Source: Aurantiochytrium sp. KH105 (taxonomy: Eukaryota; Sar; Bigyra; Thraustochytrida; Thraustochytriidae). From it: DNA of 64,000 bases. The position numbers and the translations under genes were made by a program. The stretch covers positions 62,001 through 126,000 of the forward strand of contig BGKB01000187.1 of the NCBI GenBank assembly GCA_003116975.1, in the 5' to 3' direction. The notes beneath the pieces are model-generated. The model was given only the letters and a program-made list of their open reading frames with translations. It searched no databases and was not told the DNA's origin. Within the stretch, counting starts at the first letter, position 1; every line of letters begins with the position of its first letter. This document shows positions 1,601 through 32,210 of the stretch, piece after piece.

Positions 1601-3185
1601 AATTCGTCCATGATGCGCAATTCTGGGGAAGCTTTTGAAAGCGATCATCAGAAAAGAAGCGCTCAAGAATAGCCCCATCACTGTGCTCTGAATACAGCCA
1701 AGCTTTCCGAATCAAGTTCGACCACTCGCTAGGATCAGCACCCCGAAGGACCAACCTTGCCGGCAACATTGACTCGCTGCTACTGTCTCGAATTTTTCTG
1801 GGGGGCTAGGGAGCTGGGAGAGGCCGTCTTTACGCCAAGCAAGGACACATGCGCGTGGGGCACTTCTGGCTTTGCGGTCTTTCCGCATGTATTATCAATC
1901 TCCCAAAGCATTATGTGCGCTGCGCTCTCGCGTCCGCTGCTCCGACCGAGAATCGACCCACGACAATCAAGTTCGTAGTGCAGCGAAGGCATTACCCGTC
2001 ACCATTTTCTGAGGTTCGCGCGTTTCCTCGTGTTTCTTCGAGGTAGGCTTGGTTCGCGAGTACCGAGTGTGGTCACCGGCATCCAACACAGAGGTCCGGC
2101 AGCCTACACTTGGTTGCGTGCGGTATCCTATGAACGCCTCTCTGTGTATCCTGTAGTGTATCGTGGATTTCAGGCCTCGTATCATTCGTGCTCAGCCTTT
2201 CGCTCTGTGGTCGCTTCCGCGTTTGCTCGTCACATCAAGCAAGCGGAGAGGCGGGCCGACTGGCTGGCTGGCTGGCTGGCCCGTGGCCAATCCCAGCCGG
2301 CTCAACATGGCCGTCCTCGCCGTCCCCCTCACCTGGGCAACTTCCATCCCATGTAGGCCTATCTCCCTTCTGTGAGTGTTATACTATCTTTTCTCATCGA
2401 TTCTTCACAGGCACGACGCAGGCAGGCAGGCAGGCCGTCAGTCGACTGCCGCCGTTTCTGCGTCTTTCGCGCTTCTGCGTGTCTGCGCATTTGCGCGTCC
2501 ATCCAACAAGCCCTGGCCCGCCAGGCCCCTCGGTCTCGCAGACCGCATCGATTTCCGTGGCCGGCCGATCCTATCCTGGCGGCGGAAATCCCGGGTCCCC
2601 GTCACGCAGGGCGGCGGAATTCCGGGCGCCCGTGCCGAGTTCGACTCCGGCTCGGGACCAGGCGCCGCGGGGCCGCGCCGGGCAGACGCGCTTCGCTCCT
2701 TCGCCTCTTCGCTGCTCTCCTCCTCTCGCCTCCCCGCGGCCGCACCGCGAGCGAGCGAGCGCGAGCGCGGGGGCCCGAGCGCTCCCGGGGCGCGAGCGAG
2801 CGCGGGAGGTCTCCGGGCCGAGGAGGCGCGGCATCGGCATCTTCATCTTCATCGTGGTCGCGGGAGCGTCGCGCATCATCACCTCATCCATCCATCCATC
2901 CATCCATCACAACCCGCGCGCCCGCTCGATCGATCCGCCGGCCGGCCGGCCGGCCAGCCCGCGCGGCGGGAGACCGCGGCGGGAGACCGCGCAGACCCGC
3001 GCGCGCGGGGCCGCAGGTCCATCGCCCTGGGCCGGGGCGGCCGCCAGGCCCTAGCGAGCTAGGACCATTCCGAAACGCCCGCGCTGCTCGCGCTGCTTGC
3101 GCTCGCTCTCGCTCTCGCTCTCGATAGCCTCTGCCCGCTCGCTCGCGAGGAGGCTCGGGCCTCGGGCCTCGGGCAGCGGCGGGCG
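1601..3185. other. Long intergenic region, likely promoter of the next gene
   Basis: About 1.6 kb without a supported gene. It contains short tandem tracts: a GGCT run near 2260-2280, a CAGG run near 2420-2432, a CCAT run near 2885-2907, GGCC copies near 2938-2955, and CTCGCT repeats near 3100-3122 just before the next start codon. Long open frames here are low-complexity Arg/Pro/Ala translations of GC-rich DNA and show no family resemblance. Confidence 0.5.
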
Positions 3186-5761
3186 ATGGTGCTGGGCCTC
3201 GGGGGCCCGGAGCGATGGGCGGGCCTTCTGGGGAGGCTGCGCTCGCTGCCGTGGCCTGAGCTGTACAGGAAGGGCCCCATCGGGATCCCGCAGCCTTTCC
3301 GCATGGAGCACGGCGAGTGGGGCCCGCCCATGCTCAAGAGCTCCGAGCTCGACTGGGAACTCTACTCGGTCGTGCTCATCTGCTGCGACGTCCTGTTGAC
3401 CTTGATATGGGTAAGTTTCATCCCGGGCGTCATGCGTTGTGCAAATCGGGAAAATGGGAGTGAAATGTGGGACACATGTACTGACTGACGAACCGACCTG
3501 CTCGCCGCTCGACGGAATCCACAACGCGCTCGCCGTCACCCGCGGATGATGGATGCTTACCCACTCCCCCTTCTTGTCGCGTGTGCATGCATCCAATTTG
3601 ATGTACAGCATTACATGGCGGCGACCACTCTGGCCCAGGTTCGTGTCAAATGGATGAGTCCCACGTTTCGCGTCTCGATCGGCTACATGTTTGGAACCTT
3701 TCGCTTGAGCATTGTACGTTTTCGACCCATGTGCGGCCGTGCTGGCGAAAATGAAGAAATGCAGAGAGGAAGTGAAAAACTAACAAAGGTACTCGCGCGC
3801 GCTCTTTTGTGGTCTCACAGATTATCTACTTTTTCCGTGCCGAACCCTATGCGGCCTATACGCACCTGCACATTCTCAGTTTTATCCTTCATTGCTCCTT
3901 TGGCCTTGTGGCTCTTCTTTTTGGCGATGGTCCATGGGGTCACCTGAGACCAAATAACTTTGGGCAGCTGGATCGAGACCACCAACTTAATCTCTACGCC
4001 ATGCTGCGCTCTTTCATCCAAAGGTCTCGGAGCCACTTGGAATTCCTCTTTTGGGGATCTGTGCAATGGTTCGTTACCACCTTCCCCAAAGGCTCCTCCT
4101 GGCTCAGCGCAGCGACCCTTCATCTCGCACCGGGAAAGGTCTCCGACGTCAAAGTCGTCGATGGCATCTCGCCCTACTCAAAGCTCACGTCATCACATTT
4201 TTCACATTCCGGGTCGGATCACTCCCTCGTGGGTAATGGCTTCGATCGTATTGTGCGCATGCGCAGGTCCCTGGCGCAAAGGTTCACTTCGCCAAAGAAT
4301 TGTGCGGCAGACTTGCCTGCAAGTGTATCATCAAAGATAACCAAGTCTTCTGCCCGCCCAAGTCTCGAGGTCGACACGCTCACTCAGAACAAGGATGGTG
4401 TCGAAAGCGTTGTGCTCAAGGATGCAGATATTCCGGACATGTTTCGTGACTCGTCGAGTCGAAACGATGCCGAATGTTGTCCTGAACCGGTGCCCAGCAT
4501 CGGTTCAGGCGCTCAAGAGCTGGTCGCCAATGCATCTGGATCGCCAGCCCAATGTCCTTCTGGGCCCCTTGTTGATCTTTCTGACGAGGCTGACATGGCG
4601 CCGTACTGGGAGGCGATTCACCCTCGATCTGATTTGGCGCGAGTCAACGAGACCTCTGCTGCTCAACAGAATCAAACGAATCGCTGGTTCATGTCCGAGC
4701 AAGACTCTTTCAATGGCGGTCAAGGCAATGTGGTTCTCGTAGGCCCGGCCAACGTTCGCATTAATGTCTCGCAGTCCAAGTGGAACGAAAGTTTGCTCTT
4801 TTGGGCCATGCCATCCATCGCGGCGTACTTTAGCCAAAAGGTGAATGCATCCTTAGCACGCGAGTCACCCAATCTTCGTTTGCGCGGCAAGCTTAGCCCT
4901 CGTGCACGGCGCGCAGATGCTTCCCTCTCATCTTCGTCGGGGGGACCCAGCGGCGCCGCGCGAAGTAGTCGACTGATGTATTCTCCTCAAACTTCGCCTG
5001 CAACGTCGCCAACGTCTTCATCTGCATCACCTTCGCCGTCTGCCGCACGTGATTCTGAGACCTTGCTCCGCATGCCTCCACTCGACATTGGTTCGTCCTC
5101 ACACGCAAGTCCCAAAACATCTCCCCGAAGATCCTCAACACCCCCGAACGACGAGACACCCTCTTCGTTCTTACCCTCGCGGCAACGCACATCGTCTGTC
5201 CCTGGGGCTGCACCGCGTCGCCGCTCGTCTCGACATAGCGAGCGCTCGTCACGTGTGACTCGCCGAAATTCAGTCGACGGAGGTCGTCGCAGTGGGAGCG
5301 AGAACAACCGAAATGGAGGGAGCCCAAGCTGGAGTGCAGTTGACGCCTTTGTAAACAGATCATCTCCGAGCGTTGCATCGGAAGACTCGGACTCGGACGG
5401 CGACGATGACTTTGGAGAATCAGGCGTTTATGGCCGACCCGTTCGTGGCACTGTGCAGTTGCGCGGAGACGGAACGCTACTCGCCATCACAACGGCACCG
5501 CCGTGCATTCGGAGCATTTACAAGGTTGCCCGCAACAACGAAGGACAGCCTCCCGAAACGCGCGAGTTTGTCGTGGAGCTCGTTGGCCGTCGCGTTCGCT
5601 GCAAGTCCGGTCGCAAGGTCATTTATACGTACGCAGAGTACAGATCTTTCGGAATCCATCTCACTCAGGCTCCGAGTGCGACCTTGCTGTGGCTGCTAAA
5701 CAAGCTCAATGGTGAGATCAGGGTGCCCATGCTTCGTGTGTTCCGTCACGAGTGCATGTGA
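3186..5761 (+). CDS. Orphan multi-pass membrane protein, three exons
   Basis: I read three exons: 3186-3410, 3609-3713 and 3821-5761. Introns of 198 and 107 bp have GTAAGT and GTACGT donors and AG acceptors, and both are phase 0. The spliced product is 756 residues. Three hydrophobic segments lie near the N-terminus (residues about 59-80, 97-115 and 126-145), and the exon junctions fall within or beside them, which supports the splicing. The middle (about 160-470) is mixed, and about 470-640 is Ser/Pro/Arg-rich and probably disordered. The last 110 residues look folded, with alternating strands such as GTVQLRGDGTLLAITT and REFVVELVGRRVRCKSGRKV. I recognise no family. It is probably an integral membrane protein with a large cytoplasmic tail; topology and function are unknown. 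Confidence 0.7.
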
Positions 5762-6105
5762 GAGCGCCATTGAGCACCACCTATTATCTTCCCTTTGTTA
5801 AAATCATGTTTCCTATCTTTCTTTGTTTGTAGTTTTTTGCGGAACTATTTTTTTTTCGCCTATTTCTTTCTCCGTGGATGCTGAGACTAGGAAGTCGAAG
5901 AGTTGTAGGCGACTACGCAACGTGTTTGAATCCTCTCAGAATAGGGGAAATTTGATCGCAACGACCAGACCATGAGCTCTCCAGCTTGTCCAAACCCCTT
6001 TAAAAAAGAGGCGAAATCCAAAAAAATTCGAAAGAGACACGCCAACAACAACAACAACAACAACAACAACACTCACTATCTGCCTGATGATCATTGGTTA
6101 TCTTA
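5762..6105. other. Intergenic between convergent genes
   Basis: Shared 3' region of two convergent genes. It holds T-rich runs near 5815-5865 and a CAA trinucleotide run at about 6044-6070. No gene seen. Confidence 0.5.
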
Positions 6106-7646
6106 TTAGAGTCGACTCGAGAGCGCACGCATGGCGACAATTACAAGCACGGTTGCTGCTGCCATACCCCCCAGCATGCGAACGCGAGTTTGAGATTTCA
6201 GGTTGGCGTCAACAAGAGAAGACACCCCTGCGTCCACATCCACGTCCATGCTTTGTCCAAGGAGCGACGCACATACCTGAGAAGAAATCTCTGCATTGTC
6301 ATCAAACGCCGGTAGCACAAACTTGTCGAGCCAGGTTTCCTGCTCAAAAATTGTATGGAGGATGGACTCGCGCGCAGTGTACCCATGACCTTCGTGAGGA
6401 AGGAGAACAAGCTTGGTAATTGCGCCATGGCCCTTGAGTGCATCGTACAAGCGTTCCGATTGGATCGGAAACGTACCCGGATTCTCGTCCGCAATCCCGT
6501 GCACGAGCAAGAGCTTGCCCGTGCCCTGGGCAATTTTCGGCGCGTGCGAAAATGGCGACAGCTTGGCATACGTCTCGGGCGCATCCCAATACGTACGTTC
6601 CTCAGCTTGGAAGCCGAACGGGGTCAGCGCACGCAAGTATGCACCCGAGCGCGCAATGCCAGCGCTAAAGAGGTCCGTGTGCGCAAGGAGATGCGCCGTC
6701 ATGAAAGCTCCATAAGAGTGACCCCCGACCGCAAAGCCGCCAGGTTTGCCCAGTCCTCGATCCAACAGCAACCGAACAGCAGCCTGCGCATTGGCTCGCA
6801 GCTGCTCCACAAATGTATCATTGGGCTCGGCGTCAGGGCCTTCTGCCACAATTGGGCTTGCGAAACCGAGGACGACCCAGCCCTTTACTACCCAAGTAAC
6901 GGGTCGTGACCACGACGTGCGCGTAAAGCGGTGGGGGGATGTTTTCACCTGACCGGCCGCCTTGCTCGACTTAAACTCGCGCGGGTACGCCCACAAAAGG
7001 CATGGCCGTGGCCCATCCGTTTTGGGGTCGTAGCCTGGAGGCAAGTAGAGATCTCCATTTAAATCAAGGCCGTCATCACGCTTATACTTGACCAGCTCCT
7101 TGCGAACGCCCACGAGGGCTGGCTGCGGGTGAGCATGTCGCGTGATGCGCCATTCCTTGCCCGTTGAGAGCTGCCGCCAAAAAAAATCAGGGGGTTGATC
7201 GTTTGACTCGCGTCGAAGAAGCATCCACTCTCCCCCGGGAAACAGTATCGCGGGATACTCGTACAATGCTTGTCGCTGCGTGGGTACCGTGCCACCAGGC
7301 TCGCGGCTTGTGTCCACGAGCGAAGCGTCAGCTTCAGGGCCGAGGGGGCTCCGCCATATATGCTCTGTCCTCCTCTGCGAGAGATCCCCCTTGGGGTCGA
7401 GGAAGAGTCGATCAATAAAGGGCCGGCTTCCCACGGGACTGGCGCCTGCACCTACAACATCAAAAGCAAGTTCGTTTTTGATGGTCTGGTACTGCAAATG
7501 ATAGACCCCATAGGCATCTGCGGCGACCTGGATGCTGCCTGTCGAAGCATAGGCATCGTCCGAGGAACGCTCGTGCATGAGTACCTTGGGTTCATAAATG
7601 CCAGAGTCGCACGTTGAAGAACTCAAAGTGGTAGAAGCAATAGCTT

Positions 7647-7677
<31 letters not shown>

Positions 7678-9906
7678 AGTAACGACAGCTCTTTTCTCCC
7701 TCAAGATCCACTTGCGCGTCTGACGCGTCTTGCGCCAGGACTCCGTTACGAAACAAAGGCCTGCCGAAGCCTTTGACCAGCTAATGCCAGAAATGCGATA
7801 GTCCAACTTGACAATGAGACGCGCGTCTGGGCTCTGCATCGGATCCTTCACATAATCTGCGAGCCGAAACGGGCCTGACAACTCAAAGACGGCATCACGC
7901 TCCTTTGCCTCGAGCTTGGGATTTCCCTCGTCAAGGGCAAAATCGAACACGAGCGTCGCGGCCTTTTGCCAATGCCACATAATGCCTCGCGGTCCCTGGG
8001 GCCGTGCGTCAAAAGAAATCACCATCCCCTCTTGATCCGGAAGATCAACCACCGTACGAATTTCTGCAACTTGAACGGCGAATGGCCGAAGCGCCTCGTC
8101 GCCAGAGAGCATGGCTGCTGCCATTTTGACAATAGACTTGTGACTGGCATAGAGCTCCGCAAACGCCTCGTCGCTTTCGTCCACGTCGAGCCAACGTACA
8201 GACTGTGCGTCATCGCCAGCGGCCAGCGGGATATTGTCGCCTAATTCTTTGTCACAGTGAAAGTGAATAAAGGCTGACTCCATCCAGGCGTTATCTGTGT
8301 TTCGCGGATCGTCTACGTAGCCGCAGTAGATCTCTGTGCCTTGCTCAAAGAGCTGATCCAGCTTTTCACGATGCGCTTCAAGCTTTTCATGCGTCATGTC
8401 TACATTTCCGGCTTCCTCAATAAATTCTCTTTTCATCGCCACAGGGACGGATTCGCCCGGATCCACCATTCCACCCGGAAGCGCCCAATGACCTGTATCC
8501 TGGCGTTGTATGGCAACCATTTGCAGCACATCGGGGCGCTTGGGGCAGTATCGCGTTACGATCGAGTCAGCGGCGTGGTTCGGGCCCCATTTGCCCAAGA
8601 GCCCGCGGCCCACCATGCCTGTGCGTCCCACGGGATTGCGCGGTCTGCCGTCCTGCAAAAAAATCTTGCCATGATACGTCATGCGCTGTTCTATTTCAGC
8701 AAGATCCATTTCATCAAGATCCGGATCAGCCCAGCCATCCTCTTTGATTTTGTTGTTGTTGTCGAGGACAGCTTGGTGCGTAAAATCCACAGGGTTGTAC
8801 GCGCTGTCTTCAGCCTCAAAGCTAATGGCAGAGACCGAAGCACGCTTTGGGTATTGGGGGTGGTCGCCGAGCGCTGCCTCGTGCGAGGACATGGCCGAGT
8901 GGAAGCTGAGCGGGCGCGAGAGCGTCCATACCTCGATCTTTTTCGCAAATTTGTAGTACGGCAGAGTCCATGAAAACGGCTTGGTGGTGATGCTGACGAG
9001 AAAGTGGCGCTTGTCCGGGGAAAGAGAGATTGAGCGAATCATTACGCCCCCGCGCGTGGGTTCCAGCACAGTCTCAATTGTCGTGTTGTTCCCACCAAAC
9101 TGAACAAGAACTACTTCTGCCTTGGTGTAGTACTCGAAGAGCTCTTCGTCGCGCTTCGATGAGATGAGGCGTTGGTACGTGCGCGCGGGGGCATTCTTGG
9201 TGGTCAGATTTTCCTTAATGTTCGGTCCTCGAGGAACCGTCTCTTCTGCGGGTGGGGGGCCCTGATTCTCTGGGGCGCACATGCACAAAAGGGAGGCGCC
9301 ATCTCCAAGAAAACGAAAGGGGCTGTTCGTGATAGCGGTCAGCGTCCGGTTCCCTAAGAGAGGGCGCGCTGCAATTGATTTGGGAGGGTTTTGCTGGGCG
9401 AGGTAATTGTCAAGGTCAATGACGAACAAGCGCAGCGCAAAGCCATCGCCGTCAGGCACCTTGGCCGCAAAGGCGAGTTTGCCACCGTCGCGGCGCCACC
9501 GGAAATAGCGAAAGCCAACGGCGTCAGCGGGGAGCCCCTCCACCGCAACGTCGTTAGCGCCGTCGTTCTCGGCGTCTTCCTCGAGGCCAAGTGGCGCGCC
9601 TTGGTCGCGAGCTCGCCCTCCACCACCTGCCGCTTGGGGCCCGTCTCCGGAGAACAGCCGCCGCAGCGTGAAGGCGTGCGCGAAGAGCGCTTTGTGCGGC
9701 GTGCGCAGCTTCGGGTCGAAGCAGAGCCCGCCGGTCTCCACGAGGGGGCGCGAGATGTCGGCGACGGAAAACGCCAGCGAACGATACGACGCCACCACGC
9801 TCCATCTCGCGCTCGGGTCCTCGATCAGGTGCGGCTCCTCCTCGATGTCCAGCACGCGCTCCAGCGCCTCGCTCGGCCGCGCGTACTCCTCGCCGCCGCC
9901 GCCCAT
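6106..9906 (-). CDS. Glutamyl-endopeptidase-like S9 peptidase with embedded NUDT9 Nudix domain and C-terminal membrane anchor
   Basis: A single 1266-residue frame from an ATG at 9904-9906. Residues about 1-340 and 615-930 look like the beta-propeller of plant-type glutamyl endopeptidase (S9D), with PFSWTLPYYKFAKKIEVW before the insert and GPRGIMWHWQKAATLVFDFA after it. Residues about 960-1220 are the alpha/beta hydrolase, with a likely triad Ser1064 (GGHSYGAF), Asp1140 (GIADENPG) and His1174 (HEGHGY). Between them, residues about 345-610 (about 8077-8874) match NUDT9 ADP-ribose pyrophosphatase: WADPD, GRPRNPVGRTGMVGRG, KWGPNHAAD, an intact Nudix box from GGMVDPGE (478) to REFIEEAGN, then GYVDDPRNTDNAWMES. 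NUDT9 splits ADP-ribose to AMP and ribose 5-phosphate. The last 23 residues form a hydrophobic segment (1244-1260) ending in RALSSRL, resembling a tail anchor. I see no clear transit peptide. The fusion is read directly, with no break in frame. Confidence 0.9.
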
Positions 9907-29816: not shown

Positions 29817-32210
29817 ATGTGGAGAAGAAGGCAAGCCCGGGAAGGGAGATCTGCGTGGTCAGAGTATAACTATCGCAGGGAAGAGCAAAGCGAGGGAGAC
29901 CTAAGCAAAGAATACCAAGGCGAAGATGACTTGAACGAGAACGACTCGAACCAGGACAACGCAAACGAAAACGACGCGAAAGAAAACGACGCGAGCAACG
30001 GCGAAATTGACCCAGAGATGCTCGAAATCATTACAGCTGACGATCTAGAGGCTTTCATGCTAAAGATGCAGACAGCGCCCTTTGATCTCAACGCCCAGTC
30101 GCCAGCGATGAACATGATGACACTGTTGATGCTTTCGATTCGCGATGGATCCAGAAATGCATCAATTGCGAGCTACCTCGTTGAATTCGGAGCCGATGTA
30201 AACCTCACTGATTCTTGGGGAAATACGGCTCTCTACTATGCATGCTTGAAACGACGGCCCATTCTCGTCGAAGCGCTTCTCAAACGAGGTGCTGACGTTA
30301 ATCATGAAAATGAATACAGCGGCGAAACAGCTCTCGCCTGTGCGAGTACCATTCAAGCATATCGCTGCGCTCAGATTCTTCTTGAGAATGGTGCAAGGCC
30401 ACGAAATGATGCCACTGCTTTTCTTTGTATGTGCATTGAGGAGAGCAAGCTAGAACTAGCTCAGCTCCTCGTCGAACGTGGTGCAGATCTAGATGTCTGG
30501 GGAGACGACGACATCACCCCACTCATGCTTGCATCTGCGAAGGGGATGTTGGACTTGGTCATCCTTTTTCTAGAATCCGGTGCTAATGTGGATCTGCAGA
30601 GCGAGACGGGTACCACTGCTCTAATGTATGCGTGCCAGCATCTAAAGTCGCAGCACTCAAAGACTACGTCTGCAGCCACTGGCAGCGATAGCAATGGGCG
30701 CAATGCTGCAGTCATCGAGTGTCTTCTCGACCACGGCGCAAGCTTGAAGTTGCGGAATAGCAAGGGTAAATCTGCACTTGAGATTGCGTGCGGCATTCAC
30801 GGAGATCCTAAGATCGTGCAAGTCCTTCTTGACCGAGGTCCCGTCATCAACCCAAGCAAACATCCAAAGGGGCTGAGCGTACTTATGTTAGCATGCGCGG
30901 CTGGCCAGCTTGACGTCGTACAACTACTCTTGCAGTATGGCGCCAACATGGACGTGCAGGCGGGGGGAGATGATGATGAAACGAAGGCAGTCGAAGGCTA
31001 CACAGCTCTCATGCTGGCATGCCGGCTTGGCGAAGATGAGATCGCTGGCCTGTTGCTCGAGTCTGGGGCAAATGTGGACTTGCAGGGTCGGGATGGTAAT
31101 ACGGCCCTGATGTTCTCGTGCTTGTTCGGCCAAATCAACCTTACTCGGCTTCAACTTCAATCTGGCACCGCTTTACTCAATGCACAAAACCAGCATGGCT
31201 CGACGGCGCTCATGCTCGCTTGCTCGTTGGCGGACGGTGATGATGAAACGTGGGAGGCTATGGACGAAGATGACGATTTTCGCCAATGGAGACAAATCAA
31301 CACGCGCGGTCGCAATGGTGTGAATGTTTCCCGGCCTGTCCACCAGGGAAACACCCTGCAGTGTGTGAAACTGTTGTGGACTCTGGGCTCCGATGCCATG
31401 CTGAGGAACGAAAAAGGCGATAACGCTCTTGACATCGCCAGAAACCACGGCCGCGACGATATTCTGGCGTATTTTGATTTTCTTCACAAGACCAGCGTTG
31501 CAAGGTTCCTGCTACGCAAAATGCGGCTGTCTCGGGAGGTCGTGACCCGCTTCTACGACGAAGACATTCAAACGTTAGCAAAGTGCTTCCTCCTTAGCGA
31601 AGGGGACCTGCTTCAGTTGGGTGTCACCTCGTACGCGAAGTGGCAAACTGAACTCGATAAAGTTCTCAATGAGCTCCAGGCTCCTCAGTCTGCGCTCGAA
31701 CGGCGATCCTTGAATCGTACAAGCAATCCTCGACGAGTCTACGAGGGTGACGACTCCCCTCCACGTCGAGCCGAATTCGACGCATTTGTCGTGCACTATT
31801 GGGGCGTCGACAACGCTGATCATGACACCGTGAGCGAGGTCAATACAAAGCTCGTGCAGGCAGGAAAGCTTACATGGTTTGACGAGGAACGTCTGATTGA
31901 CAATGCTTCACATCAGCTTGTAAATGGCGCGGCGCGTTCACAAAAAGCGGTGGTCTTTGTCACTCGACGATTCATGAAGGAGGTCAACAAGCGGCGTGCG
32001 GATTATTGCAAGCAAGCCTTTACCGTCGCTTGTCATACCTTTGGCCCCAAGCGAATCATTCCCGTGGTTCTGGACGCGGACATGCTGGACTCAGCCTCAT
32101 GGAAAGGGGCTCTGCAAGGGTGGATTTTGCAGGAGAATGTGATCGACTTTTCCACATCCTCGGCGCGCGAAAGAAATTTTGATTGCCTCATCGAAAGTTT
32201 GGAGTCATGA
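29817..32210 (+). CDS. Ankyrin-SAM-TIR protein
   Basis: 797 residues, single exon. Residues about 1-75 are charged and low-complexity, so a later start such as the ATG at 30019 is possible. About 12 ankyrin repeats span residues 95-540, with motifs such as TALYYACLKRR and LLLQYGANMDVQ. A SAM domain follows at about 561-625 (LSEGDLLQLGVTSYAKW), and a TIR-like domain at 653-797 opens FDAFVVHYWGVDNADH and contains KLTWFDEERLIDN, AVVFVTRRFMKEVN and RIIPVVLDADM. This is the TIR type common in stramenopiles and other protists. The position that normally holds the catalytic glutamate (WC-x2-E or NCK-x-E) reads Tyr730-Cys-Lys-Gln-Ala734, so NADase activity is doubtful. The layout recalls SARM1, with ankyrin in place of ARM repeats: a sensing platform, a SAM oligomerisation module and an effector domain. 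A role in stress or immune signalling is inference. Confidence 0.87.
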   Translation: MWRRRQAREGRSAWSEYNYRREEQSEGDLSKEYQGEDDLNENDSNQDNANENDAKENDASNGEIDPEMLEIITADDLEAFMLKMQTAPFDLNAQSPAMNMMTLLMLSIRDGSRNASIASYLVEFGADVNLTDSWGNTALYYACLKRRPILVEALLKRGADVNHENEYSGETALACASTIQAYRCAQILLENGARPRNDATAFLCMCIEESKLELAQLLVERGADLDVWGDDDITPLMLASAKGMLDLVILFLESGANVDLQSETGTTALMYACQHLKSQHSKTTSAATGSDSNGRNAAVIECLLDHGASLKLRNSKGKSALEIACGIHGDPKIVQVLLDRGPVINPSKHPKGLSVLMLACAAGQLDVVQLLLQYGANMDVQAGGDDDETKAVEGYTALMLACRLGEDEIAGLLLESGANVDLQGRDGNTALMFSCLFGQINLTRLQLQSGTALLNAQNQHGSTALMLACSLADGDDETWEAMDEDDDFRQWRQINTRGRNGVNVSRPVHQGNTLQCVKLLWTLGSDAMLRNEKGDNALDIARNHGRDDILAYFDFLHKTSVARFLLRKMRLSREVVTRFYDEDIQTLAKCFLLSEGDLLQLGVTSYAKWQTELDKVLNELQAPQSALERRSLNRTSNPRRVYEGDDSPPRRAEFDAFVVHYWGVDNADHDTVSEVNTKLVQAGKLTWFDEERLIDNASHQLVNGAARSQKAVVFVTRRFMKEVNKRRADYCKQAFTVACHTFGPKRIIPVVLDADMLDSASWKGALQGWILQENVIDFSTSSARERNFDCLIESLES

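Follow-up and report, generated by a model that had tools for sequence, protein, structure and literature searches.

The fusion gene and its domains

The stretch examined here (the window) comprises 64,000 nucleotides from the thraustochytrid Aurantiochytrium sp. KH105 (GenBank assembly GCA_003116975.1, contig BGKB01000187.1, positions 62,001 to 126,000 of the forward strand). It contains a fusion gene in which, as judged from alignments with the Arabidopsis S9D enzyme CGEP and with human NUDT9, a NUDT9-type adenosine diphosphate (ADP)-ribose pyrophosphatase lies within the propeller of an S9D glutamyl-type peptidase, all in one open frame. An in-frame stop lies upstream of the ATG with no other ATG in between; the start is thus likely to be right, barring an upstream exon. 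The features of the gene, in window positions, are:

6106..9906, minus strand: fusion gene, 1266 residues in a single open frame (ATG at 9906, stop codon 6106-6108)
8920..9885, minus strand: residues 8-329, the N-terminal part of the S9D enzyme with the first blades of its propeller (CGEP and bacterial S9D alignments)
9157..9276, minus strand: residues 211-250, corresponding to the dimerization loop of CGEP (its residues 276-315), with 14 of 40 identical
8920..8943, minus strand: residues 322-329, KKIEVWTL, the propeller strand that leads up to the insert (alignment; strand in model)
8101..8859, minus strand: NUDT9-type ADP-ribose pyrophosphatase module, residues 350-602 (boundaries by judgement, from Pfam and from NUDT9 and viral-contig alignments)
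8404..8475, minus strand: Nudix motif GGMVDPGESVPVAMKREFIEEAGN, residues 478-501 (REUXEE consensus)
8041..8070, minus strand: propeller strand after the insert, residues 613-622 (alignment; strand in model)
6298..8067, minus strand: rest of the S9D propeller and alpha/beta-hydrolase domain, residues 614-1203 (Pfam, CGEP alignment)
7594..7698, minus strand: low-complexity acidic loop, residues 737-771, (GCT)n(GAT)n, differing between haplotypes
6904..6993, minus strand: residues 972-1001, counterpart of the CGEP hinge loop (15 of 30 positions identical)
6715-6717, 6487-6489 and 6385-6387, minus strand: catalytic Ser1064, Asp1140 and His1174 (aligned with CGEP)
6121..6177, minus strand: residues 1244-1262, predicted to be a membrane anchor (mean Kyte-Doolittle value 1.96 for the 19 residues), after which the chain closes with SSRL

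Scanning of the chain against Pfam at E up to 1 reveals NUDIX (residues 463-589, E 4.4e-12) and Peptidase_S9 (1041-1195, E 1.4e-17) and no other family; no TRPM channel domains adjoin the NUDT9 module at this threshold. NCBIfam returned 18 weak matches, none close to its cut-off. In a sequence search of solved structures, CGEP matches residues 122-329, 616-736 and 772-1203 (E 7.6e-134), human NUDT9 residues 363-598 (E 1.4e-57) and sea anemone TRPM2 residues 361-600 (E 1.6e-55). Human NUDT9 and the module are identical at 114 of 223 aligned residues (51%), and chance similarity to CGEP or NUDT9 was rejected on the E-values. NUDT9 homology covers the whole module including its N-terminal part, since human NUDT9 aligns over 363-598 and the alignment with four NUDT9 modules from viral contigs extends it to about residues 350-602. 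An earlier, sequence-only reading of this DNA had described one uninterrupted 1266-residue frame running from S9D into NUDT9 and back; the open frame, the structure-sequence matches and the Pfam search that it had proposed, which finds both families in one chain, all bear this out. Its module span, 8077-8874, is close to the 8101-8859 obtained from the alignments, and the Nudix box and Ser1064, Asp1140 and His1174 were found where it had placed them. It did not give the strand of the frame, which is minus. Antisense to the Nudix part there is also a 200-codon open frame (window 8371-8973, plus strand), with no sign of being a gene.

The Nudix box of the fusion, GGMVDPGESVPVAMKREFIEEAG, includes REFIEE at residues 493-498, and this fits the REUXEE consensus given for NUDT9-type enzymes in PMC6461439, where a choanoflagellate enzyme with REFMEE is described as active and NUDT9 mutants with RILGEE or REFGKK as dead. 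In the peptidase, S1064, D1140 and H1174 align with CGEP S781, D855 and H889, so that the order Ser-Asp-His is kept, and the GGHSYGAFMT motif described around the active Ser (PMC12871690) is present at residues 1061-1070. Residues W972, Y974 and P975 match hinge-loop W689, Y691 and P692 of CGEP, which according to PMC12871690 adjoin the proposed Glu pocket. The S9D dimer contacts set out in that report are made by W825, V832 and F837 of the catalytic domain together with a dimerization loop of the cap; two of the three catalytic-domain residues are kept in the fusion and V832 is replaced by Ala. Both halves look catalytically intact, the NUDT9 part being probably active, and the S9D part would cleave after Glu as a glutamyl-type peptidase.

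Residues 1244-1262 form the top-scoring 19-residue hydrophobic stretch of the protein; the next separate one (1.59) is inside the hydrolase domain. The segment, which the sequence-only reading did not mention, is flanked by Arg, and residues 1241-1266 show no codon difference between the two haplotypes described below. A single hydrophobic segment near the C-terminus fits tail-anchored proteins, and the fusion is probably anchored to a membrane in this way, facing the cytosol.

Two haplotypes, selection and the search for separate genes

The genome assembly (76.0 Mb, 367 contigs) contains a second copy of the fusion gene on another contig (G000:C4:437783-441586). It is collinear with the window across all 15 kb compared, with 93-94% identity at the DNA level and 98% at the protein level, and the two copies are best read as two haplotypes; other families also match in near-equal-score pairs on different contigs, paired by score and not by alignment. 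Because a second contig carries the same fusion, collinear over 15 kb, the fusion is not an accident of assembly, and an assembly artefact was rejected.

Between haplotypes, the ratio of nonsynonymous to synonymous substitution rates (dN/dS) is 0.121 for the whole protein, 0.153 for the first S9D part, 0.089 for the NUDT9 module, 0.030 for the middle S9D part, 0.048 for the catalytic part and 0.263 for the C-terminal tail. A decayed gene was rejected on these ratios and on the second haplotype. Free variation is confined to the loop at residues 737-771, where the ratio is 1.97, an alignment-sensitive figure based on 10 changes; the (GCT)n(GAT)n repeat of this loop codes for Ala and Asp, and the haplotypes differ there by two codons in length and at several residues.

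The ratio of 0.089 within the NUDT9 module suggests that the module is translated and used. This bears on the notion that the Nudix segment is spliced out or bypassed in most transcripts, leaving a plain S9D peptidase. One in-frame GT-AG pair does occur near the borders of the insert (codons 326 and 605); its acceptor is poor, lacking a pyrimidine tract, and excision would take the strand residues VWTL as well. Nor was a separate NUDT9 gene seen in the genome, and we regard such splicing as highly improbable. The search with the module gave nothing better than E 0.0014 besides the fusion, and the search with a bacterial S9D protein revealed no separate S9D gene, although in both cases intron-split genes could escape. 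Apart from the two copies, the S9D query hits the catalytic part alone, at 27-30% identity (best E 1.3e-7), and these weaker matches coincide with places scoring highly for the general S9 family.

Insertion point, structure model and proposed mode of action

Including its linkers, residues 330-349 (about 20) and 603-613 (about 11), the insert spans 284 residues (330-613). The matched pieces of CGEP stop at chain residue 333 and restart at 338, equivalent to CGEP 387-392; the chain-to-published offset of 54 reproduces eight residues (W689, Y691, P692, W825, V832, F837, D855 and H889). In three bacterial S9D rows the same place is a two-residue turn (DG, QG and DG), as in EVLDL-DG-NPVHLVADLP. 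By alignment, the NUDT9 insert takes the place of this short turn linking two propeller strands. The S9D scan matched at least 593 stretches, at least 530 of them confirmed relatives, and the comparison set consisted of the best 80 bacterial loci (82 frames), with Arabidopsis as the eukaryote. None of the 82 frames has a Nudix insert, and the flanks are consecutive in all of them; the gap between aligned pieces is at most nine residues in 81, with many pieces overlapping, and 26 in the remaining one, whose second aligned piece begins late.

A structure model was computed for residues 8-1205 (1198 residues; model number plus 7 gives the protein number). Because a 45-row alignment misplaced the viral NUDT9 rows, which align properly with 20 or fewer S9D rows, 25 rows were folded. 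The mean predicted local distance difference test score (pLDDT) is 74.4 and the predicted template modelling score 0.73. Of the eight-bladed propeller cap and alpha/beta hydrolase that characterise S9D peptidases, the model displays blades and the hydrolase, and when its S9D parts are divided into blocks of ten residues, 71 of the 93 reach a pLDDT of 80 or more. The Nudix core has the expected order of strands and helices, but with block pLDDT values of 40-83. Fifty Foldseek matches were listed, all of them S9 peptidases; the chains of 7ep9 and 8wt1 align over more than 1100 columns, and their alignments must therefore span the insert.

In the model the insert joins the third and fourth strands of one blade (model strands 315-322 and 606-615, model numbering), and by the same strand order the dimerization loop joins the second and third strands of the preceding blade. 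Loops of these two classes sit on opposite faces of a propeller. The CGEP dimerization loop is described as reaching the catalytic domain of the partner subunit (PMC12871690). Since the loop classes differ and that loop contacts the partner's catalytic domain, the insert would lie on the opposite face; held on linkers in the hairpin between the third and fourth (C and D) strands, it should project on the side of the propeller that points away from the catalytic domains.

The sequence-only reading had proposed that ADP-ribose gates the peptidase. Gating is attractive because closure of the cap is proposed to be required for S9D activity and because the NUDT9-H domain of a TRPM2 chanzyme couples ligand binding to channel opening. 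On this view, ADP-ribose bound to the module would alter how far the cap opens or how the subunits assemble, and its slow hydrolysis would restore the starting state, in the manner of the TRPM2 chanzyme. The module is indeed inserted in the mobile cap, which is reported to move during catalysis and which, according to a proposal in PMC12871690, keeps S9D activity confined by closing. For srTRPM2, PMC11479946 describes tetramerization of NUDT9-H as a consequence of ADP-ribose binding, and a slow hydrolysis that reduces the local level of ADP-ribose. On the other hand, the catalytic cycle of nvTRPM2 is reported to be uncoupled from gating (PMC6461439), and the geometry deduced for the insert, on linkers and on the face away from the catalytic domain, does not favour the steric form of the proposal, a judgement that draws on strand order and the position of the CGEP loop. 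We give gating of any form, an allosteric one included, a small, though real, chance. A full ADP-ribose-responsive protease, in which NUDT9 would sense ADP-ribose released through PARP/PARG or by breakdown of nicotinamide adenine dinucleotide (NAD), alter cap opening and reset by hydrolysis, is a rather unlikely proposal.

The position of the module at a blade edge, and the participation of a CGEP propeller loop in the dimer contact (PMC12871690), would also suit a module serving chiefly for binding or as a scaffold, in contact with an oligomer or a partner, with any hydrolase activity incidental. The Nudix box is intact, however, and dN/dS is low across the module, and this role appears distinctly improbable.

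We consider it reasonably probable that the protein is a bifunctional single-chain enzyme, probably tail-anchored, in which an S9D peptidase and a semi-independent NUDT9 module work side by side. The module would sit at the outer end of a single propeller blade. Its Nudix part would convert ADP-ribose from PARP activity and NAD turnover to adenosine monophosphate and ribose-5-phosphate, and the S9D part would remove peptides and small proteins by cutting after Glu. The insertion would serve co-targeting and 1:1 expression; control of the peptidase by ADP-ribose is possible in such an arrangement, yet unnecessary. The sequence evidence that supports the bifunctional enzyme consists of the open frame, both active sites, the insertion point, the presence in both haplotypes and the low dN/dS. 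A PARP catalytic profile matches the genome at 20 places, some in frames of more than 3000 residues; judged by score, these could form as many as ten haplotype pairs. They make up a rich ADP-ribosylation repertoire and are a possible source of ADP-ribose for the fusion.

NUDT9 acts on free ADP-ribose, which counts against a further suggestion of the sequence-only reading, namely that both activities have the same substrates, such as Glu-ADP-ribosylated peptides; whole proteins with this modification would belong to the same class. The 20 PARP-domain matches would agree with it, as would the Glu specificity reported for the Arabidopsis S9D enzyme, but the S9D pocket proposed in PMC12871690 accommodates a Glu side chain, and a Glu bearing the modification would be unlikely to fit it; moreover, Pfam finds no further binding module in the chain. 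Given the fit to the pocket and the preference of NUDT9 for free ADP-ribose, a shared substrate seems scarcely credible.

Several observations weigh against the bifunctional enzyme, its anchoring or the placement of its module. In the insert, residues 335-443, 501-513 and 519-544 of the predicted structure fall below a pLDDT of 50, and the NUDT9 module modelled alone (5 rows) has a mean of 42.7; the low values are perhaps due to the small number of aligned relatives, and misfolding of the module is unlikely because it is 51% identical to a solved protein. The Foldseek superpositions are loose (query TM-score 0.27-0.36, root-mean-square deviation 9.7-19.4 among the 50 matches listed), and CGEP is missing from those 50. 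The face assignment is founded on strand order, not on coordinates. Just 14 of 40 residues of the dimerization loop are identical, and one of three interface residues is changed (V832 to Ala). The predicted anchor is only moderately hydrophobic, and the terminal SRL could be a peroxisomal signal instead. To these must be added the GT-AG pair near the insert borders, the possibility that intron-broken genes were missed in the search for separate copies, and the occurrence of the fusion in two haplotypes of one genome and nowhere in the bacterial and viral-contig sets.

Related proteins and significance

CGEP (S9D; PDB 10eq and others) resembles the fusion in the GGHSYGAFMT motif, the Ser-Asp-His triad, the hinge W/Y/P residues and a recognisable dimerization loop. 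It lacks a Nudix insert, whereas the fusion has its NUDT9 module in a propeller hairpin. It is furthermore described as having a chloroplast transit peptide and a poorly resolved, autocleaved C-terminal tail (PMC12871690), in contrast to the predicted C-terminal membrane anchor of the fusion. Human NUDT9 (PDB 1q33) shares 51% identity and an intact Nudix box with the module; it is a stand-alone mitochondrial enzyme according to PMC6461439, while the fusion module is internal to a peptidase. TRPM2 NUDT9-H (6co7, 8sr7), whose sea anemone and choanoflagellate versions are reported to be hydrolytically active (PMC6461439), is likewise a NUDT9 module that forms part of a larger protein, but as the C-terminal domain of an ion channel and not as an insertion in a peptidase propeller.

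Scans of a viral collection revealed five contigs (L059-L063) with a NUDT9-type module in a long frame, none of which matches S9D. In the four that were aligned, the modules are 41-46% identical to that of the fusion and likewise lie inside long frames. Two contigs also match VG15 and ADP-ribosyltransferase families, which the fusion lacks. The combination of NUDT9, ADP-ribosyltransferase and VG15 in one frame, found in L059 (frame 2673-7244) and L060 (frame 2547-6611), is in itself unusual (L061 was outside the Pfam scan).

A NUDT9 profile gave no match in 299 bacterial genomes of one phylum at a strict E of 1e-15, a result that, without a positive control, shows nothing; among 16 bacterial genomes reached through their loci, four had weak, short matches (E 1e-4 to 7e-4). 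Two S9D trees (42 rows) place the fusion on a long branch without support and point to neither a donor lineage nor a link to plants.

To our knowledge, NUDT9 modules within larger cellular proteins are known only from TRPM2 channels. The sequence-only reading knew of no description of an S9D-NUDT9 fusion, and a full-text literature search, with most subscription papers outside it, likewise found none; the same architecture may be annotated elsewhere, for instance in eukaryotic protein databases.

Two other findings concern the window and the genome at large. On the plus strand at 29817-32210 lies the gene for a protein with ankyrin repeats and a C-terminal TIR domain (Pfam TIR_2, 28.7 bits, cut-off 28), with a SAM-like stretch, identified by eye, in between, a layout that recalls SARM1; where such domains usually have their catalytic Glu, this one may have Gln. 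Contigs C72, C155, C290 and C61 of G000 contain polyunsaturated fatty acid synthase-like frames, which score 930 and 456 bits with a PfaA-type profile and so stay short of its cut-off of 1010; 11 of 14 control genomes also match this profile, none over the cut-off. The frames agree with a thraustochytrid-like organism, though they do not prove one, and support a labyrinthulomycete origin indirectly.

The S9D family is reported from plants, algae, cyanobacteria and other Gram-negative bacteria (PMC12871690), to which the fusion adds what is probably a non-photosynthetic eukaryote. If its two activities are independent, the protein would still be an example of domain insertion in nature, and one that may have taken over from separate NUDT9 and S9D genes in this organism. 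If they communicate, it would be a protease under the control of an NAD-derived messenger, and an ADP-ribose-responsive protease of this kind would connect NAD damage signalling with protein breakdown at a membrane.

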